From IMG/VR virus record IMGVR_UViG_3300044941_000046, positions 1 to 20,455 of that record: a DNA stretch of 20,455 nt; one strand, written 5' to 3'. The DNA comes from a virus. The notes under the pieces were generated by a model. The model ran no database searches and had not been told where the DNA came from. It worked only from the letters and a program-made list of their open reading frames with translations. A program made the translations under genes and the position numbers. Below are positions 5,822 to 20,455 of the stretch, in pieces; the first letter of the stretch is position 1, and every line of letters starts with the position of its first letter.

Positions 5822-8032
5822 TTAGGCGGTCGTTTTACGCAGCCCTTTCCAGTCGAGGGCTTTGGCCCCAATATCCATTTTTACATCCCAACCAATGCCG
5901 TATTGCCCTCTATCTAAAGTGAAAGAACGCACTTGTGGTGCCTTTCCAGTGCCTCGAAGGTATCCGACCTCAATCGTATGGGCCATGACGGAGGCAAGAT
6001 ACCAAGTCGTTGAGCTACCAGCATTGCTTGTCTCAGTCGCAGGGTCTACCACGCCGTTCTCCAGACGAGCGTCAGAGACGAGCTGCAAGTTTTCATCAGC
6101 CAGCGTGTTTGCGGTACCGCGTTCCGTTACACTACCTGCAGTGCCCGCAATCACGATTGCGGTAGAGGCGATCAGTTCCTTCGCGACAAAACGGAGTGCT
6201 GGGGGCACAATTAAATGGGTCGCGGTGAGATTGAGATTGGCCCCGTTTTCTTGGATTTTGTTGATGGCTGCGATCGCGGATTTTAGAGTTGCTGCGGAGA
6301 GTGCTGAAGACGAGCCGAGATTCCCATCAGTTGTATTAAACAACGCTCTGCCGGTTGCAGTGAGTGTGGGGTTGCTCAAAAGAATTGAATAGACCAAGTC
6401 GGGTCGCAGTCGTGCGGCAGCTTGACCTAGTCTGAGCGGTGTGTCAGAGATCGCACCGAGCATGTCGTCGATAATGTCCTGCTCATCGATCTGGAACCGT
6501 TTTGCGTACCGAGCGATCTTGTAGGATTCCAGAGCGTCTGCAAAACTCGCGTCATCTGCCGTGCCACCACGAGGTAATTTTGAGAGACCATCTCCTACTT
6601 CGACGCGGATTCGCTCCTGAGTTTTGAAATCCGCGACCTCAGCCTCTTTCGTCCAACTCATTGTCGTATCTGGTGCCTCCAAATACGAAGCAAGGAGTAT
6701 GGCATTCACGTTGGTGGTGAAAATGTTGGCGAGGTTGCTACCGCTGAAGGCGGCTTGGATCATCTCGCTGCGGTTCGTTGGAATTGACTTTCCTTCAAGT
6801 CGCAGAGCCTCACGGCAGATATCGACAGCACTCATATCAGAGTATTTGTGTGCTGCTTCCATGATCTGATTGCGGTTTGAATCGTTGATTCCCGCACGAA
6901 GCCATTGGGGGAGTTTCAGGGCGATTGCTTGAACTGAATTGGTGAACGCTTTGTTGTCCAGAGCGAGACCCGCACGAACCAACAGAGCACCCTGAAGGGC
7001 TTGGAGAGTACAGGATTTGTCGTGAGACTTGACGATGACCGCAGGGCCAGCGTGGCGGCTTGATCGTTTCATAGCGAGCAGCTCCGACTTCACTTTGTCT
7101 ACGCTCCAATTATTTTCAATCGCGTGCGAGAGGAGCTTGACCTTTTTCCCAGAAGACGCTTTGATTTTGGGGTTGCCATACTCTTCGCACAATCGAGTAA
7201 TGGTTTTTACCCGTGCCATCACATGGGCGGCGTTGATTTTTCTCTTTTTAGCACGAGCATTTGTCGGCATAACCTCTTCTTTTTCTTCCTCTTGTTCAAT
7301 TACGTCCTCTTCTTTTTTTTCCTCTTCTGCGATTACCCCCTCTTCGGGGTTCGTCGCATTTTCCTCTTCATCTTCCTCAGCGTACTCCTCGTTGTAGAGC
7401 AGTTGCAGATTCGTTCTTTGAATCTCGCTGAGGGAAGTTTGATCGTCAAAACCAATCGACACTAACCATTCCTCGAATGACATTGTTGCCCCCTTTATTG
7501 ATTTGTTCCGGCTAACAACCGCTGTAGTTAATCGGTCCCCGCCAAGCACAACGAAACTCACCTCTCTCAGTTGCAATTTTCTGGCCACATATAGTGGCCC
7601 TTCGTACCGTCTGCCATTCACAGTTATTGTCTGCCCAGACTGTACTCGCTCGACCTGACCCGGGTTACCTCCCACAGATACTTGCCATTGATAACCAGCG
7701 TCTGCTCGATCCAGAACTTGCTTGCAATAGTTCATCTCGAGCGGAGCGTCTGTAGGCGTGAAGACGCCCTCAGCTACCAGTTTCCCGTCCTGCAAGCGGA
7801 TTGACTCGACTTGACCCACAATGCATTCTGCCGTCGATCGATGATCGTATAATGCAGGGATTCGCTGGTTTGACAGATCGATAGAGTCCAATTCGATTAC
7901 GACAGGGTCTTCCCAAGGCCATATCGACATTGGTTCGCCGGTGTAAGCCTCCAACGAAAATCTTCGTTTGCCTGACCCATCCGCCGCCTTGATACGGCAA
8001 TTGACGGCAGTAGTTTTAAGTTCTTTTGGCAT
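5822..8032 (-). CDS. Fused prohead protease, scaffold and Mu gpT-like major capsid protein
   Basis: This 736-aa protein combines three head-assembly roles. Residues 1-180 are a prohead protease of the HK97/U9-like type, with candidate catalytic His64 (LYDHRST) and Ser119 (QVSVGGNPG). Residues about 185-265 are strongly acidic and helical, ending in the basic AKKRK; this is the expected character of a scaffold domain. Residues about 330-736 are capsid-like, with N-terminal helices (AIALKLPQWLRAG, MEAAHKYSDMS) and a long HK97-fold-type region resembling Mu gpT. On assembly the protease is expected to cut itself and the scaffold away from the shell protein. The ATG at 8032 has AGGA three bases upstream. 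An internal ATG at 7483 (residue 184) has an even better ribosome binding site. The fusion is seen directly; cleavage is inferred. Confidence 0.85.
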   Translation of the reverse strand: MPKELKTTAVNCRIKAADGSGKRRFSLEAYTGEPMSIWPWEDPVVIELDSIDLSNQRIPALYDHRSTAECIVGQVESIRLQDGKLVAEGVFTPTDAPLEMNYCKQVLDRADAGYQWQVSVGGNPGQVERVQSGQTITVNGRRYEGPLYVARKLQLREVSFVVLGGDRLTTAVVSRNKSIKGATMSFEEWLVSIGFDDQTSLSEIQRTNLQLLYNEEYAEEDEEENATNPEEGVIAEEEKKEEDVIEQEEEKEEVMPTNARAKKRKINAAHVMARVKTITRLCEEYGNPKIKASSGKKVKLLSHAIENNWSVDKVKSELLAMKRSSRHAGPAVIVKSHDKSCTLQALQGALLVRAGLALDNKAFTNSVQAIALKLPQWLRAGINDSNRNQIMEAAHKYSDMSAVDICREALRLEGKSIPTNRSEMIQAAFSGSNLANIFTTNVNAILLASYLEAPDTTMSWTKEAEVADFKTQERIRVEVGDGLSKLPRGGTADDASFADALESYKIARYAKRFQIDEQDIIDDMLGAISDTPLRLGQAAARLRPDLVYSILLSNPTLTATGRALFNTTDGNLGSSSALSAATLKSAIAAINKIQENGANLNLTATHLIVPPALRFVAKELIASTAIVIAGTAGSVTERGTANTLADENLQLVSDARLENGVVDPATETSNAGSSTTWYLASVMAHTIEVGYLRGTGKAPQVRSFTLDRGQYGIGWDVKMDIGAKALDWKGLRKTTA
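7481..7496 (-). promoter_or_regulatory. Internal ribosome binding site and start inside the protease-capsid gene
   Basis: On the minus strand AAAGGGGGC (7496-7488) precedes an in-frame ATG at 7483 by four bases. Translation from here would give residues 184-736 (553 aa), i.e. scaffold plus capsid without the protease. The match is stronger than the site of the full-length start and falls exactly at the boundary between protease and scaffold domains. This resembles the lambda C/Nu3 nested-gene arrangement, except that here the nested product would also contain the shell protein. Confidence 0.55.
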
Positions 8033-9774: not shown

Positions 9775-9910
9775 GACTGATTCGCCGTCACTGCTAGGAC
9801 CGATTCCGCGTCTCCCGTAGGTCTGATTCGCCGACTCCCGCTAGGACCGATTCCGCGTCTCCCGTAGGTCTGATTCGCCGACTCCCGCTAGGCCACATTT
9901 CGCTTGGCTC
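9775..9910. repeat. Tandem array of degenerate 23-24 bp units (47-bp higher-order repeat)
   Basis: Units begin at 9795, 9818, 9842 and 9865, with a degenerate unit on each side. Each unit has the form TAGG-C-GATTC-CCG-CTCCCG. Alternating units differ in the same places, so the 47-bp pair 9793-9839 is repeated exactly at 9840-9886. A frame through it on the minus strand (9794-10015) seems to be a by-product. The array sits in a 347-bp gap between the zinc-ribbon gene and the gpW-position gene. No function is known. Confidence 0.75.
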
Positions 9911-12874: not shown

Positions 12875-13810
12875 TTAGGTTGAGAATGCGGACTCTATCT
12901 GTTCGATCATTTTTTCCGTTTCTATCTCTGTTTTGGTCTTTGGCCTTTGCGGCCCAGTATTCGCGTTCTGGCGATACTTTGCCGGGAAAAGGCCTTGCCA
13001 TCCGTTTCGGATGGAATCCCCCACGCATTGGGCCGCTAATGCTTCGGGGAGGGAAGCCAGTTCTTTGAGTTGCCTCGTCAGTGTGGCGGGGGTGAGGGTG
13101 AGTCGCCGAGAACGACGGTACTCGATCCACTCTCGCCACACTGTGGCAAAATTTTCCGACTCGAACGGGAGTTCCAGTTGCTCCGCTTTCCCCTTCGTGG
13201 GCTTAGGTGGTGGGATCGGTTCTGAGGCAGACGCAGGCATGGTCTGGCTCCCGCCCGTCCCCCCAACGGGGGGTAGGGGGGTATTGTCTTGTTCTTGTTC
13301 TTGTTCTTGCTCTTGTTCTTGCTCTTGATTTGGCATACCATTCCGAAAGGGTTCGGGTAACCCTTCGGCAAACCCTTTCCCTAACCCTTCGGCAAACCCT
13401 TTCGCTCTCGCCATAATCTCATAAAGCATAGGACATTCCGGCAAAAGAGCGATGGCGTTGCTCCATGACTTCACTACGTTTGGGTTTTCCGGTTTGTTGT
13501 ATTTGAGGAAGTTTGGCAACCATATCAAACAAGCTCTCTCATCCACCCTGACGAGACCCTTTTGAGTCAGTTCTCGGAACGCTTCCCGAAAGGGTTCCGA
13601 AAGGGTTCCCGAAAGGGTTCCCGAAAGGTTTGATGAGAGAGGCCCGATCTCTTCCGCAAGACCGTTGATGCTCCCTCTCATGGCGCCCAGTGAAGTAAGG
13701 TGGGGGTGGGTGAGTAAGAAAAAGAACACGAGCTTGGCTTTGGGAGACAAAGATCGAAACTTAGCGTCACCCCAAATCCTTGTGTCGATTTTGCGGAATT
13801 TGGCAGTCAC
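12875..13810 (-). CDS. Phage replication initiator-like protein (lambda O-like)
   Basis: The start chosen is the GTG at 13810, because AGAGGGGA lies three bases upstream and the conserved text TAKFRKIDTRIWGDAKFRSLSPKAKLVFFFLLTHPH follows at once; the longer frame to 13876 adds a non-conserved leader. The 311-aa product has an N-terminal winged-helix-type DNA-binding domain (1-125, ending FLKYNKPENPNVVKSW). A linker full of repeats follows (LSGT and FREAF at 60-78, GFAEGL at 138-150, seven EQ dipeptides at 163-174). The C-terminal region (about 220-282) contains SIRNGWQGLFPAKY, seen in replication and loader proteins. It would bind the phage origin and recruit the host helicase. The repeats in the DNA may be the origin itself. 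Confidence 0.8.
   Translation of the reverse strand: MTAKFRKIDTRIWGDAKFRSLSPKAKLVFFFLLTHPHLTSLGAMRGSINGLAEEIGPLSSNLSGTLSGTLSEPFREAFRELTQKGLVRVDERACLIWLPNFLKYNKPENPNVVKSWSNAIALLPECPMLYEIMARAKGFAEGLGKGFAEGLPEPFRNGMPNQEQEQEQEQEQEQDNTPLPPVGGTGGSQTMPASASEPIPPPKPTKGKAEQLELPFESENFATVWREWIEYRRSRRLTLTPATLTRQLKELASLPEALAAQCVGDSIRNGWQGLFPAKYRQNANTGPQRPKTKTEIETEKMIEQIESAFST
13287..13327. repeat. Hexanucleotide microsatellite coding for (EQ)7
   Basis: Tandem copies of TCTTGT or TCTTGC run across 41 bp in frame with the replication gene and encode alternating Glu-Gln. Because the unit is six bases, copy-number change would not break the frame. It separates the DNA-binding and C-terminal halves of the protein. 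Confidence 0.8.
13341..13403. repeat. Second iteron-like cluster in the replication gene
   Basis: TTCCGAAAGGG (13341-13351) matches the iteron unit of the cluster at 13583. It is followed by two exact 22-bp direct repeats (13358-13379 and 13382-13403) that contain AACCCTTTC, the inverse orientation of the same core. The repeats encode the GFAEGL/GKGFAEGL segment. Confidence 0.65.
13583..13629. repeat. Iteron-like tandem repeats, candidate phage replication origin
   Basis: Four tandem units TTCCCGAAAGGG start at 13583, 13595, 13606 and 13618 with lengths 12, 11, 12 and 12, the second lacking one C. The one-base difference shifts the coding frame, so the protein text changes from LSGTLSGTLS to EPFREAF while the DNA repeat continues. 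DNA conservation across a frame change argues for a role of the DNA itself. Lambdoid phages have the origin iterons inside gene O in the same way. Confidence 0.65.
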
Positions 13811-15091: not shown

Positions 15092-15991
15092 TTAATTCTC
15101 TATTTCAACAACATCGAAACGGTAGTGTTGACTTGGCTCTACCGAATAGCCTTTGCGTTGTACAAGTTTTCGTTTAATGGTGTATCTGCCAGCGAAGCAT
15201 GTTTCTGCGTTGCCCATCTTGAGGATAATTCTGCCTTTTGCTTCCTCGGCTTCCCTTTCCATTTTGCGGGCAATAGCTTTACAGTCAGAGTAGATGCCAG
15301 CGAGTTCCTCAACCGAGGAGTCGTAGATCGTGTGCTTCTCGGTTGTCGGTTGGTACAGGGCTTCTAAAATCGCAATTGTCTCATGATGCCGCCAATCTGG
15401 TTCGGGTGGTGAGTTTTCCTGTACTCGTTTCCACATCTCGAAACATTGGTTATGTATCATTACCGCGAGCGTCTCATTGAATTTGACCTTGTAAATCAAC
15501 AATTCCTCACCACCTACCAAAACGACTACCTCGGCACTCTTGTGGCCAGTCACGTCCATTTGGTGCATCACCTGACACAGGTAATGATGTGGTATCTGAT
15601 CGGTACCAGGCTCGCCCCAATCATCCACTCCCTGACGGAGTTGCCGTACTGTCTTTATTTCCACGATTCCCGTACCGTCGGCTCGGAACCTATCAACTGT
15701 AGCTAATTTCCACGGATGCATTGGGTGGGCGATCGTCTTCCCATTTGGATCTATCAGACCATCGCCTGTTTCCTCCTCGTACATTTGAGCCACTATTGGT
15801 TCCAGCAAACGGCCTCGTCTCATCGCTGGATTGTCAGGTTGCTTCCACAATCCCCGTTTGTCTGCCCAGACGTGTAGCGGCGTTCTATGTGGGTCGATGC
15901 CGCAACATGCGGCTGCATCAGAGGACCCGATACCCCTTCTCCGATTTTCATGCCATTCGTCGGGCATGGAAGTACCGATTGACACTACCAT
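15092..15991 (-). CDS. YqaJ-family viral exonuclease
   Basis: The ATG at 15991 was chosen because GGAG lies eight bases upstream and the YqaJ signature starts just after; the longer frame to 16078 runs through the preceding gene. The 299-aa product has the family pattern: GIGSSDAAACCGI (about 20-32), GRLLEPIVAQMYEEETG with Glu64, ATVDRFRADGTGIVEIKT with Asp100, Glu111 and Lys113, and HHYLCQVMHQMDVTG with Gln140. These residues form the PD-(D/E)xK metal site of lambda-exonuclease-like enzymes, which resect double-strand ends 5' to 3'. The annealing-type gene follows directly. It overlaps the preceding gene by seven bases. Confidence 0.9.
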   Translation of the reverse strand: MVVSIGTSMPDEWHENRRRGIGSSDAAACCGIDPHRTPLHVWADKRGLWKQPDNPAMRRGRLLEPIVAQMYEEETGDGLIDPNGKTIAHPMHPWKLATVDRFRADGTGIVEIKTVRQLRQGVDDWGEPGTDQIPHHYLCQVMHQMDVTGHKSAEVVVLVGGEELLIYKVKFNETLAVMIHNQCFEMWKRVQENSPPEPDWRHHETIAILEALYQPTTEKHTIYDSSVEELAGIYSDCKAIARKMEREAEEAKGRIILKMGNAETCFAGRYTIKRKLVQRKGYSVEPSQHYRFDVVEIEN

Positions 15992-16257
15992 GGAGTTTTC
16001 TCCATTACAAAAGTCAAATCGTCTGCGAAGCGGGTGATCAGATTGTGTTTGTGGGTGCGAAATGCCTGCAGGTCCCACTTTATTTCTGGGACCTGTTCTG
16101 GGACCAGCATGTAAATCTGTCCTTCAGTGAAACACTCCCATACAGTTTTCGTGATCGCGACGATCCTGTATAGGCCGGTGAGGTCAGTCACCTTGACCAG
16201 ATCGCCAAGTGCGTACTCTCTTCTTGTGGCCGCGAATGTGGCCAGTTGTTCGTTCAT
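15985..16257 (-). CDS. Small early phage protein of unknown function, 90 aa
   Basis: The ATG at 16257 has GGAG six bases upstream; a GTG at 16269 would add four residues but lacks this spacing. The protein starts MNEQLATFAATRREYALGDLVKVTDLTGLYRIVAI and resembles a small KOW/SH3-like beta domain that handles protein or nucleic acid binding (VKVTDLTGLYRIVAITKTVWECF). The C-terminus (FRTHKHNLITRFADDLTFVM) is helical. It is transcribed with the exonuclease, overlapping it by seven bases. No function assigned. Confidence 0.65.
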   Translation of the reverse strand: MNEQLATFAATRREYALGDLVKVTDLTGLYRIVAITKTVWECFTEGQIYMLVPEQVPEIKWDLQAFRTHKHNLITRFADDLTFVMEKTPW

Positions 16258-16286
16258 TCTTTTCTCCACCGTTATTCGTCGCTCAG

Positions 16287-16353
16287 TGCGACATAGGGGT
16301 TCGAACCATCACAGGTCTTATAAACCTGTCCTCTACCACTGAGGTACTTGTCC
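16287..16353 (-). tRNA. Degenerate tRNA-like element, anticodon loop reads AUA
   Basis: Read leftward, the sequence has a perfect D-arm (CCTC-AGTGGTA-GAGG), a perfect anticodon stem (CAGGT/ACCTG, with an extra closing pair), a seven-base loop TTATAAG and a T-loop region GGTTCGAACC. The T-stem keeps only two or three pairs and the variable loop is only about one to four bases. The acceptor stem has only GACA/TGTC in common. AUA is not a normal bacterial anticodon. It is therefore a decayed tRNA, a fragmentary tRNA or a tRNA mimic. It lies in the 156-bp gap between the HTH gene and the small early gene, inside the leftward operon. Confidence 0.5.
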
Positions 16354-16413
16354 AGTTTTTGATGACCTTTGTTCTTCTAAAGATAAAAATATTCTTATTC
16401 TTTTATGCTTTAG

Positions 16414-16899
16414 CTATACAGTTGCTAAAGCAATCTGCCTTAATTGATCGAGTGTGATAAAGTTACTCACCCAATCTGGCTTGTAGCCATCATCAGCAAT
16501 AACCCAAGTTGTTTTGATGTGTTGTGAAGCACAATAGATGGCTATCTGCCGAGCGACATCAGTACCTTCGTTTGGCCCAAGGTATATTTCCGTCAACCAT
16601 TCATAAATCGGTATCTCAAGTGCACTGCGAAATACTCGCAATTTTTGCTCGCAAATTGCGAGTATTGCTTCGTTTGATAGCCCGAATGCCCCGCAGGTTG
16701 TGGCTTCATCCGGTGATATCATCCCGTTGGTTGCCATAAACCTGATCAGGTCCTTTTTGCGGACACGTCGATCATGACTTCCTGGTATGCGATAACCTCG
16801 CAATTGCCCTGAGTCGACCCACTTGCTCACGGTACGCGGTGCCACATGGCATATCTTTGCTATCTGCCCAGTTGTGTATACTTCTCGATCAAGTTCCAT
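16414..16899 (-). CDS. HTH DNA-binding regulator with C-terminal receiver-like region
   Basis: This is a 161-aa protein. Residues 1-57 form a MerR/excisionase-type helix-turn-helix: YTTGQIAKICHVAPRTVSKWVDSGQLRGYRIPGSHDRRVRKKDLIRF. The rest (about 70-161) looks like a degenerate alpha/beta receiver, with EIYLGPNEGTDVARQIAIYCASQHIKTTWVIADDG but no clear phosphoacceptor. Related prophages pair this kind of HTH with a REC-like domain. It begins two bases from the previous gene and is the second gene of the leftward early operon, so it probably controls excision or early transcription. It could also be an excisionase. Confidence 0.7.
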   Translation of the reverse strand: MELDREVYTTGQIAKICHVAPRTVSKWVDSGQLRGYRIPGSHDRRVRKKDLIRFMATNGMISPDEATTCGAFGLSNEAILAICEQKLRVFRSALEIPIYEWLTEIYLGPNEGTDVARQIAIYCASQHIKTTWVIADDGYKPDWVSNFITLDQLRQIALATV

Positions 16900-17593: not shown

Positions 17594-18487
17594 ATGAAAC
17601 ACTATTTCACACTAGTTTTCTCGCTCGGAATCCTCGCAAGTTTTTTGGCTTGTGGGTCTGGAAACTCCCATCCTCATAAGGAAACTCAAATTGGATCAAA
17701 TCCGACCAAAGAGGTTGACCAGAAAGGTAAGCAGAATACTGATCCTAAAGAACCTTTCTACGATACCGAATTCCCGAACCCACCCTTACTACCAAAACAA
17801 CTCTGGGCAAGGGGAGACACGCAAAGAATGAATGATCTTCTTGCGTTAATCGAGAAACAGAAGGACCAAATAAACGAAAAGAAGAACGGATTTGTTCGTT
17901 ACCCAGCCCCGTCAGAAATATCAACCAAACAACTGCGAGAATGTCGATCGGGTGACTATGTGCGTCTGGGGTTCACTATTGTCGCACAGTTGGCTTATCC
18001 AGAGGAAAATATAATCGTTGGGACTGTCGATCTCGAACCAGTTGCATTGATTAATACAAGTACTCGCGATGTGATTAGCGGACGTGAGTATGTATTTTCT
18101 GGTGTTTGGTATGTTACAACCATTAATGTAAATGGACGACAATATCTTGGTTTTGATGCAAATAAAGGTGCTCAGAAAGAAAAGGAACTTTTGAAAGAAC
18201 GGCATCGATACGAGCAAGCAGAGAAGGCTTTTGACGTGGCAGAGAAGGCAATCAAGATGCTTGATGACCTCAAAAAGAAAATCCTTGATGCAAGAGAGCT
18301 AGAATTTAAGAAGGCGAAAGTCGAAGCGGAAGATACGGCTTCAAAACTAGCAAAAGAAAAGCATCCCATCAACCCAAATTTCACAATCGAAAAACGCAAC
18401 GAACTAAGAAAAATTCAAGAGGCATATCGCAACGAAGAACTCAAAAAACTCATGGCCGACGTCGAAGAGAGGTTCAGACTCAAATAA
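17594..18487 (+). CDS. Coiled-coil lipoprotein, candidate lysogenic conversion (cargo) gene
   Basis: This 297-aa protein starts with a lipoprotein signal: MKHYF, a hydrophobic core (TLVFSLGILASFL), then the lipobox LAC with Cys20. A low-complexity tether (about 21-60) leads to a central beta-rich, OB-fold-like part (about 108-190: GDYVRLGFTIVAQLAYP, IIVGTVDLEPVALI, YVFSGVWYV). Two charged coiled coils fill about 195-297. The protein should be anchored to the outer face of a membrane. It is expressed in the opposite direction to the lytic genes, next to regulators, which is typical of prophage genes active in the lysogen (superinfection exclusion or host-surface change). Neither role is proven. 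GAGG precedes the ATG. Confidence 0.7.
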   Translation: MKHYFTLVFSLGILASFLACGSGNSHPHKETQIGSNPTKEVDQKGKQNTDPKEPFYDTEFPNPPLLPKQLWARGDTQRMNDLLALIEKQKDQINEKKNGFVRYPAPSEISTKQLRECRSGDYVRLGFTIVAQLAYPEENIIVGTVDLEPVALINTSTRDVISGREYVFSGVWYVTTINVNGRQYLGFDANKGAQKEKELLKERHRYEQAEKAFDVAEKAIKMLDDLKKKILDARELEFKKAKVEAEDTASKLAKEKHPINPNFTIEKRNELRKIQEAYRNEELKKLMADVEERFRLK

Positions 18488-18979: not shown

Positions 18980-18992
18980 CCCATTTTTAACC
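18974..18992. terminator. Weak hairpin between converging genes
   Basis: GGTTAA (18974-18979) pairs with TTAACC (18987-18992) around seven bases. The stop codons of the winged-helix gene and of the integrase lie in the two arms. The stem is short and AT-rich, so efficiency is doubtful; the arrangement would suit a bidirectional terminator. Confidence 0.35.
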
Positions 18993-20258
18993 GATTTCGG
19001 CAGCAATCCTTTTAGCGACGGTGTTATCCTCGTCGAGGTAGACTCTTCGTGTGACTTCCTCGCTGTCACCGATCGCTGCAGCGGCAATTCTATCCGATTC
19101 GTATCGTCGTTTTATTTCGGTCGCGTAATTATGACGCAACTGGTGAGGATGCCAACGTGGTATCTGCAACTCGTCGCAGGCTTGTCGTATCCGAAAACCA
19201 TATCGGTTCCTTTGTATTGGTCGCCCACTCAAGAGGGTGAAAACATAACCTGATAGATTAAGACTCTTTTTTACAATTGCTTGGGCCTTTGGCCCCAGCA
19301 TAACGATCCGTGGCTTTTCCATGTGGGTGGTTTTATTCACTTCAAGGCAGACACGGTACACCCAAACATTTTCGCTGCGGTCTAGGTCCTCCCACCTCAT
19401 TCCGCAAACGTCGCTAGGTCTCATACCGGTCAGGAGCTGGAGTTCAATCATATCCGCGAGCATAGTCGTCGATGCAGAACCTCTGAAATGATCCTGCACC
19501 ATGCGAATGAGCTTGATCGGAGCCGACGTTACCTTTTTTGATTCGGGGACATTCGCTCGACCCGCTTTCAGGTGTTGAATTGACTCACATTCGTGCAAAA
19601 CTGACGGTGGGACAAACTTTCGACCAACACCCCAACGGAAGGCCCTGATAATTCGCGATATATATCCGTTGATTGTGTCACGAACGTACTGCTGTTTGAT
19701 CATGGCATTCCGCACCGCTTCCAGTTTGGTCAAGCTAAAATCTTGGACGTACTCTGAACCGTACAAGCTGAGCAAAAAACTCATCGCAGATCGTTGGATG
19801 TGGTACTCAGAAGTTTGTCGGTCAAATTTGACATAGTTTGCTTGGCAGTGATCTAACCATGCTTCAACAAACTCAGCAATGTATGGTCGAGCCATCTCGG
19901 GATGAGAATTGGGTGACGACCAAGCCGCACAGAAACGACGATACCTCTCGTTTGCCTCCTCAGTTCCCCATTGACCAAAATATGCCCATTGTCGTTTACC
20001 TTTGGCAATCCATGAAGCATATGCCAGCCCTCTAGATTTGTGGCGGAGCATCCTTGGGACTGGGCGAGGAGCTGACCTCGACGGTCTCCCCCCTCTACGA
20101 AACCTTTTATCCGGTGGTGTTGTCACTGCTCTCTCGATATCCCACCTGAGAAGGTCTATTCTGCAACGAAGGGTCGACGTCGAGACGCCGATCTCACTCG
20201 CCCATTCCGCCAGAGATTTGGTTACCCCATTAATAGACAACTGCCGTGCTGGATTCAT
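18987..20258 (-). CDS. int: Tyrosine integrase (site-specific recombinase)
   Basis: The 423-aa protein has the catalytic residues of the family: Arg280 (ELQLLTGMRPSDVCGMRW), a Lys in the beta hairpin (KTTHMEK, about 309-315), His372 and Arg375 (HPHQLRHNYAT), and Tyr407 (VTRRVYLDED). The usual His/Trp at the third position is Asp398 (GDSEE rather than GHSS). Residues 9-48 form a small HTH-like module (INGVTKSLAEWASEIGVSTSTLRCRI..DIERAVTTP), also seen in homing-endonuclease-type proteins, and residues about 75-115 an arm-binding-like strand region. It catalyses integration and excision at the tRNA-Pro site beside it. AGGAG lies seven bases before the ATG at 20258. Confidence 0.92.
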   Translation of the reverse strand: MNPARQLSINGVTKSLAEWASEIGVSTSTLRCRIDLLRWDIERAVTTPPDKRFRRGGRPSRSAPRPVPRMLRHKSRGLAYASWIAKGKRQWAYFGQWGTEEANERYRRFCAAWSSPNSHPEMARPYIAEFVEAWLDHCQANYVKFDRQTSEYHIQRSAMSFLLSLYGSEYVQDFSLTKLEAVRNAMIKQQYVRDTINGYISRIIRAFRWGVGRKFVPPSVLHECESIQHLKAGRANVPESKKVTSAPIKLIRMVQDHFRGSASTTMLADMIELQLLTGMRPSDVCGMRWEDLDRSENVWVYRVCLEVNKTTHMEKPRIVMLGPKAQAIVKKSLNLSGYVFTLLSGRPIQRNRYGFRIRQACDELQIPRWHPHQLRHNYATEIKRRYESDRIAAAAIGDSEEVTRRVYLDEDNTVAKRIAAEIG

Positions 20259-20409: not shown

Positions 20410-20455
20410 TCGGGCTGGCGGGATTTGAACCCACGACCTCTTGCACCCCAAGCAA
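20410..20455 (-). tRNA. tRNA-Pro(GGG), 3' part, prophage attachment site
   Basis: The minus strand shows most of the anticodon stem and loop (TTGC, loop TTGGGGT with anticodon GGG, GCAAG), the T-arm GTGGG-TTCAAAT-CCCGC and the acceptor 3' strand CAGCCCG with discriminator A. The 5' half is beyond the window. No CCA is encoded, and a run of nine T follows at once as a likely terminator. The 3' end faces the integrase, the classical arrangement in which the phage attachment core restores the tRNA end. Confidence 0.85.

Follow-up and report, generated by a model that had tools for sequence, protein, structure and literature searches.

What is the short tRNA-like sequence that lies within the early operon of this phage, and does it still do anything? 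The window analysed here is the complete 20,455-base IMG/VR record IMGVR_UViG_3300044941_000046. A sequence-only reading had placed a tRNA-like element at 16287-16353 and offered four explanations for it: a decoy for host enzymes that cut tRNAs, a signal that divides the mRNA, an ancient attachment site, or plain decay. The covariance-model check which that reading had in mind yields a match to Rfam family RF00005 with 30.5 bits and E = 1.8e-6 (single-family search, whole record):

16289..16352, minus strand: 64-nt tRNA-like element with a reduced T-arm, read as a degenerate tRNA gene; RF00005, 30.5 bits; ARAGORN negative

The proposed position was therefore right to within 2 nt, while the strand had been omitted. 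No second match to RF00005 is found in the record up to E = 10. The alignment runs end to end (model positions 1-71), although the score is only just above the gathering score of 29 used with cmscan and is low compared with the tRNAs of two bacterial assemblies that contain relatives (mostly 50-78 bits). The possibility that a chance sequence merely looks like a tRNA derives some support from the folding energy, which is unexceptional relative to shuffled sequences (z = -1.1), even though the minimum-energy fold of the isolated 64 nt is the cloverleaf. Thermodynamics alone is thus insufficient, and the significance of the element comes from the combined match in sequence and structure. Given the E value for the record and the full coverage of the model, chance resemblance is refuted and its probability is practically nil; the element is a real relic of a tRNA. 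ARAGORN calls no tRNA anywhere in the window, this element included, and the whole-window cmscan output (fast Rfam scan) lacks it as well, probably because of the speed filters of that scan. The case shows that such programs miss tRNA-derived features in phages. The element is known from one metagenomic contig; a near-identical contig (L002) ends before the region.

The Rfam alignment divides the element into the following parts:

16347..16352, minus strand: 5' strand of the acceptor stem, GACAAG, one base missing compared with the tRNA model
16330..16344, minus strand: D-arm, 4-bp stem CCTC/GAGG, loop AGTGGTA
16312..16328, minus strand: anticodon arm CAGGT-TTATAAG-ACCTG, AUA at the anticodon position
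16297..16307, minus strand: reduced T-arm GG-TTCGAAC-CC, 2-bp stem, normal 7-nt loop
16289..16296, minus strand: 3' strand of the acceptor, CTATGTC, plus discriminator G; CCA is not encoded, CAC follows (alignment and sequence)

The D-stem is intact (4/4 pairs), and so is the anticodon stem (5/5 pairs plus a flanking A-U), which closes a 7-nt loop UUAUAAG. The T-stem is reduced from 5 bp to 2 pairs by the absence of 3 nt on each side, with its loop UUCGAAC intact, and the acceptor has 6 pairs and one bulged A rather than 7 bp, one base of the 5' strand being absent. The sequence-only description thus holds for the perfect D-arm and anticodon arm, for the reduction of the T-arm and the acceptor, and for AUA in the anticodon loop. 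Without exception the 17 remaining pairs are of the Watson-Crick type, and almost none of the conserved tertiary positions has been lost.

Could this be a working tRNA with an unusual, shortened T-arm? The D-arm, the anticodon stem, the T-loop and the acceptor pairing are all recognisable. However, tRNAs without a T-arm are known from animal mitochondria, where they are served by dedicated factors. Here the anticodon loop carries A34 and G38, and an AUA anticodon in this setting is unusable under normal bacterial rules; to our knowledge A34 in bacteria is essentially confined to tRNA-Arg(ACG). Bacterial tRNAs whose T-stem has only 2 bp are not known to us, and ARAGORN rejects the element. A functional tRNA is therefore highly improbable. 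Set against a canonical tRNA, the element has the D-arm, the anticodon arm with a 7-nt loop and a score above the covariance cut-off, and it lacks a bacterial anticodon. Compared with canonical phage tRNA genes it shares its ancestry and its location in a phage genome, but differs in the absent usable anticodon, the 2-bp T-stem and the bulged acceptor. A combination expected of a degenerate phage tRNA gene is present: significant homology to tRNA together with defects that are expected to preclude function.

We therefore consider it most probable (roughly three chances in four) that the element is a passenger tRNA gene of the phage, inactivated by small deletions or insertions. Such a gene would have resided in a gap between two co-oriented early genes of a temperate planctomycete phage and would have lost 1 nt in the acceptor and about 3+3 nt in the T-stem, with an anticodon loop that no longer offers a usable bacterial anticodon. 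It would presumably still be co-transcribed in the leftward early mRNA. The RNA would be unable to complete the stack of acceptor and T-arm on which end-processing enzymes, CCA-adding enzyme and EF-Tu all depend, and as a consequence should have no role in translation; processing and aminoacylation would both be lost, leaving a mere passenger. Plain decay is thus the best supported of the four original suggestions, in view of the 2-bp T-stem, the acceptor bulge, A34 and G38, and the negative ARAGORN result.

The parent of the gene is uncertain. Pairwise alignment leaves the isotype ambiguous, with Pro, Thr, Phe and Ile(TAT) scoring alike. By its D-arm the element comes nearest to planctomycete tRNA-Pro/Thr, with a resemblance to tRNA-Pro(TGG), but in the loop a parent with a CAT anticodon (Met/Ile2) or a tRNA-Ile(TAT) requires the fewest indels.

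Defective tRNA genes tied to mobile elements are pervasive in prokaryotes (van der Gulik et al. 2023, PMC9897764). The tRNA fragments and pseudo-tRNAs described there resemble the present element in being low-scoring, incomplete, linked to mobile elements and missed or mis-called by annotation programs. Many of those cases, however, are fragments made by integration, whereas here the 5' half is complete, the T-arm is short, and the element is situated in an operon away from the attachment site.

One observation fits less easily with slow decay. Neutral decay dominated by substitutions would rarely leave 17 of 17 pairs Watson-Crick: in a neutral model with a 10:1 ratio of substitutions to indels, stems of this quality have p ~0.016 if two indels are assumed and 0.002 for three, these values being rough since the model treats events as independent and ignores both the identity of the parent and the detection bias that only tRNA-like sequences are noticed. 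Stems free of mismatches despite several indels suggest that the lesion is recent, that it arose in a single complex event, or that the fold is under residual selection. In our view they point to a lesion that is recent or arose in one complex step; they do not prove selection. That a T-arm-shortened tRNA-like RNA is being selected in the early operon, either to help process the mRNA or to act as bait for defences that cut tRNAs, with indels accepted only where they spare the remaining helices, is rather improbable.

Which retained functions could be meant becomes clearer from the surroundings of the element. The neighbouring features are:

16414..16899, minus strand: HTH_17 / excisionase-like regulator, 161 aa, upstream gene
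16377..16413, minus strand: AT-rich inverted repeat CTAAAG...CTTTAG, between the excisionase-like stop codon and the element
16278..16292, minus strand: hairpin GTCGC-ACTGA-GCGAC, -6.2 kcal/mol, after the element; present in the 159-nt fold
15985..16257, minus strand: 90-codon ORF, downstream gene, ATG at 16257; no Pfam match
15092..16078, minus strand: RecE/YqaJ-type exonuclease of this early operon; coordinates of the listed ORF, whose true start probably lies further inside

As had been claimed, the element sits within the early operon, which runs leftward; the genes on either side of it are co-oriented. It lies in the 156-nt gap from the stop codon of the excisionase-like gene (16414) to the ATG of the 90-codon gene (16257), which is preceded by a purine-rich stretch resembling a ribosome-binding site. 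The neighbouring early genes are packed tightly, ~1 nt apart or overlapping. The AT-rich inverted repeat may have a regulatory function or mark the end of a transcript.

This arrangement invites the interpretation that the element is a structured RNA in the early mRNA which acts in processing or stability and splits the excisionase-like message from that of the recombination genes, the tRNA-like fold and the flanking hairpins serving for instance as a cut point for RNase P/Z or RNase III. In an otherwise compact operon the gap is taken up mainly by this element, which is flanked by the AT-rich repeat on one side and by the GUCGC-ACUGA-GCGAC hairpin on the other, and its stems are without mismatches. 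RNase P and RNase Z, however, mainly recognise the stack of acceptor and T-stem, and exactly this part is damaged, which weakens the argument. Moreover, the downstream hairpin competes with the element for the 3' strand of the acceptor, and neither the 95-nt nor the 159-nt fold contains an acceptor stem. The intergenic region as a whole folds only moderately better than shuffled sequences (z -2.0). A processing role is therefore unlikely.

A second retained function would be a decoy, or alternative tRNA, directed against host defences that cut tRNAs, in which the anticodon hairpin acts as bait or as a cleavage-resistant substitute. The parts that have remained intact are indeed the D-arm and the anticodon arm, and phage tRNAs have been proposed to evade anticodon nucleases through changes in the loop (PMC10264068). 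The tRNAs in that proposal are working substitutes, however, whereas this element has neither a usable T-arm nor a usable anticodon, and no anticodon nuclease is known that can be linked to the phage or its host. We consider a decoy very unlikely. Overall, there is a high probability that the element is an ordinary feature and a small residual chance that it represents a retained RNA outside translation. As a decayed tRNA gene it is of little import; selection on the fold would make it a rare case of a phage tRNA mimic that operates outside translation.

The remaining suggestion, an attachment site, depends on the biology of the phage itself. The record encodes tail, head, portal and terminase genes and a replication protein, together with RecT-like and RecE-like recombination proteins, the excisionase-like regulator and a tyrosine integrase. 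Assemblies of Gemmatales, Gemmataceae and Phycisphaerales contain relatives of the capsid, which makes a temperate phage of Planctomycetota the most likely identity. Two features at the end of the record are relevant here:

18987..20258, minus strand: tyrosine integrase, 423 aa
20410..20455, minus strand: 3' half of a tRNA-Pro(GGG) gene, current tRNA-type att site, cut by the contig end

The tRNA-Pro(GGG) half precedes the integrase start by ~150 bp. Over its last 42 nt it is identical to a chromosomal tRNA-Pro(GGG) in 5 of 392 Planctomycetota genomes, and in the matching genomes the preceding TTGC is identical too, which extends the identity to 46 nt and to the end of the contig. This is the classic tRNA-type arrangement, and judged by these matches 20410-20455 is the probable att site of the phage; the matches also point to the host lineage. 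Study of the element has in this way helped to settle what the phage is: most likely temperate, a phage of Planctomycetota, and with tRNA-Pro(GGG) as its probable att.

The hallmark of such a site, a stretch that lies beside the integrase gene and is identical to the 3' part of some host tRNA gene, is found at 20410-20455 and is lacking at the element. With the true site next to the integrase, the element is not a working att site, and the earlier proposal is largely refuted in its present-day form. Instead, it might be what is left of an earlier attachment site of host tRNA origin. The capsid-related phages G003, G010 and G012 hold att-like remnants consisting of tRNA 3' halves, and in G005, G011 and G431 tRNAs or tRNA-like elements lie within ~0.5-1.5 kb of the integrase domain. 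The 3' halves in G003, G010 and G012 have complete T-arms, however, and here the 5' half is full and the 3' half damaged, the reverse of what an att copy shows. A host tRNA gene with the same 3' half would need a 2-bp T-stem. Furthermore, the integrase gene is 2.6 kb from the element, with several ORFs in between, and the working site already lies beside it. Since the damage affects the very part of the tRNA that an att copy must preserve, ancestral use as an attachment site is quite improbable as well.

In the related phage G005 a tRNA-like sequence (L096 1501-1556; G005:C1:19445-19500, minus strand) has D-, anticodon and T-arms and no acceptor. It is located ~1.5 kb before the integrase domain, and its anticodon loop lacks U33.

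In combining a tyrosine integrase with a tRNA-type att and, apart from it, an element of tRNA origin, this probably temperate phage is reminiscent of tRNA-dependent lysogeny (Guerrero-Bustamante and Hatfull 2024, PMC10865867), in which the att common core is only ~10 bp and the host tRNA is consequently broken by integration. Here the att identity covers at least 42 nt of tRNA-Pro (46 with TTGC) instead of ~10 bp; the element, for its part, is damaged, and its anticodon (AUA, not NGG) is not that of the att isotype. As two defining features fail, the phage falls outside that system.

The element has no detectable counterpart elsewhere. Exact-pattern searches of IMG/VR (with the 5' half and with the anticodon arm of a CAT-type or TAT-type parent) and a blastn comparison with the phage collection yield none. 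In the 392 Planctomycetota genomes blastn finds ordinary Thr/Pro tRNAs only, matched mainly on the D-arm side. Nor is an element-like feature seen near RecE in planctomycete prophage regions, where the RecE homologues are distant (about 30% identity); the regions compared include two that come from the same family as a genome matching the tRNA-Pro half. Scans of IMG/VR for the RecE exonuclease and for the excisionase-like protein reveal no close relative of the early module, and blastn of 15985-16899 against the phage collection gives no match. A search with the 90-codon protein was also negative, though weakly so, as the query had a duplicated part and the search was run without a positive control. 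Among 52 viral records with a related capsid, five have full tRNAs and four have weak partial ones, which indicates that tRNA carriage is sporadic among these phages.

A search for the spacing of a tRNA that is 4 nt short between D-arm and T-loop returned five viral tRNA-like genes, all with a shortened anticodon arm. Viral tRNA-like genes with 39.7-53.1 bits are found at L147 1-67, L151 467-534, L148 3198-3265 (minus strand) and L150 2038-2105 (minus strand); the contigs of L147 and L151 are closely similar. They have intact acceptor, D- and T-arms, and the anticodon loop is shortened or missing. They resemble the element in that the arms are intact besides one small deletion, but they keep the acceptor and T-arm and lose the anticodon loop, whereas in the element the anticodon arm has been preserved at the expense of the T-stem length. 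Possibly these anticodon-less genes form a separate class.

Some further features of the record can be mentioned. Between the integrase and the early operon, in the stretch with the lowest GC content (about 39-43%), a 297-aa gene at 17594-18487 (plus strand) has a lipoprotein-like signal peptide and no PHROG or Pfam match, and it is a candidate for cargo expressed during lysogeny. The polypeptide of 736 aa encoded at 5822-8032 (minus strand) is a fusion of the head maturation protease and the major head protein. Finally, two tandem repeats are present. One, at 9793-9886 between the portal region and the terminase region, consists of two identical 47-nt units; the other, at 13575-13632 within the replication gene, has units of ~12 nt.
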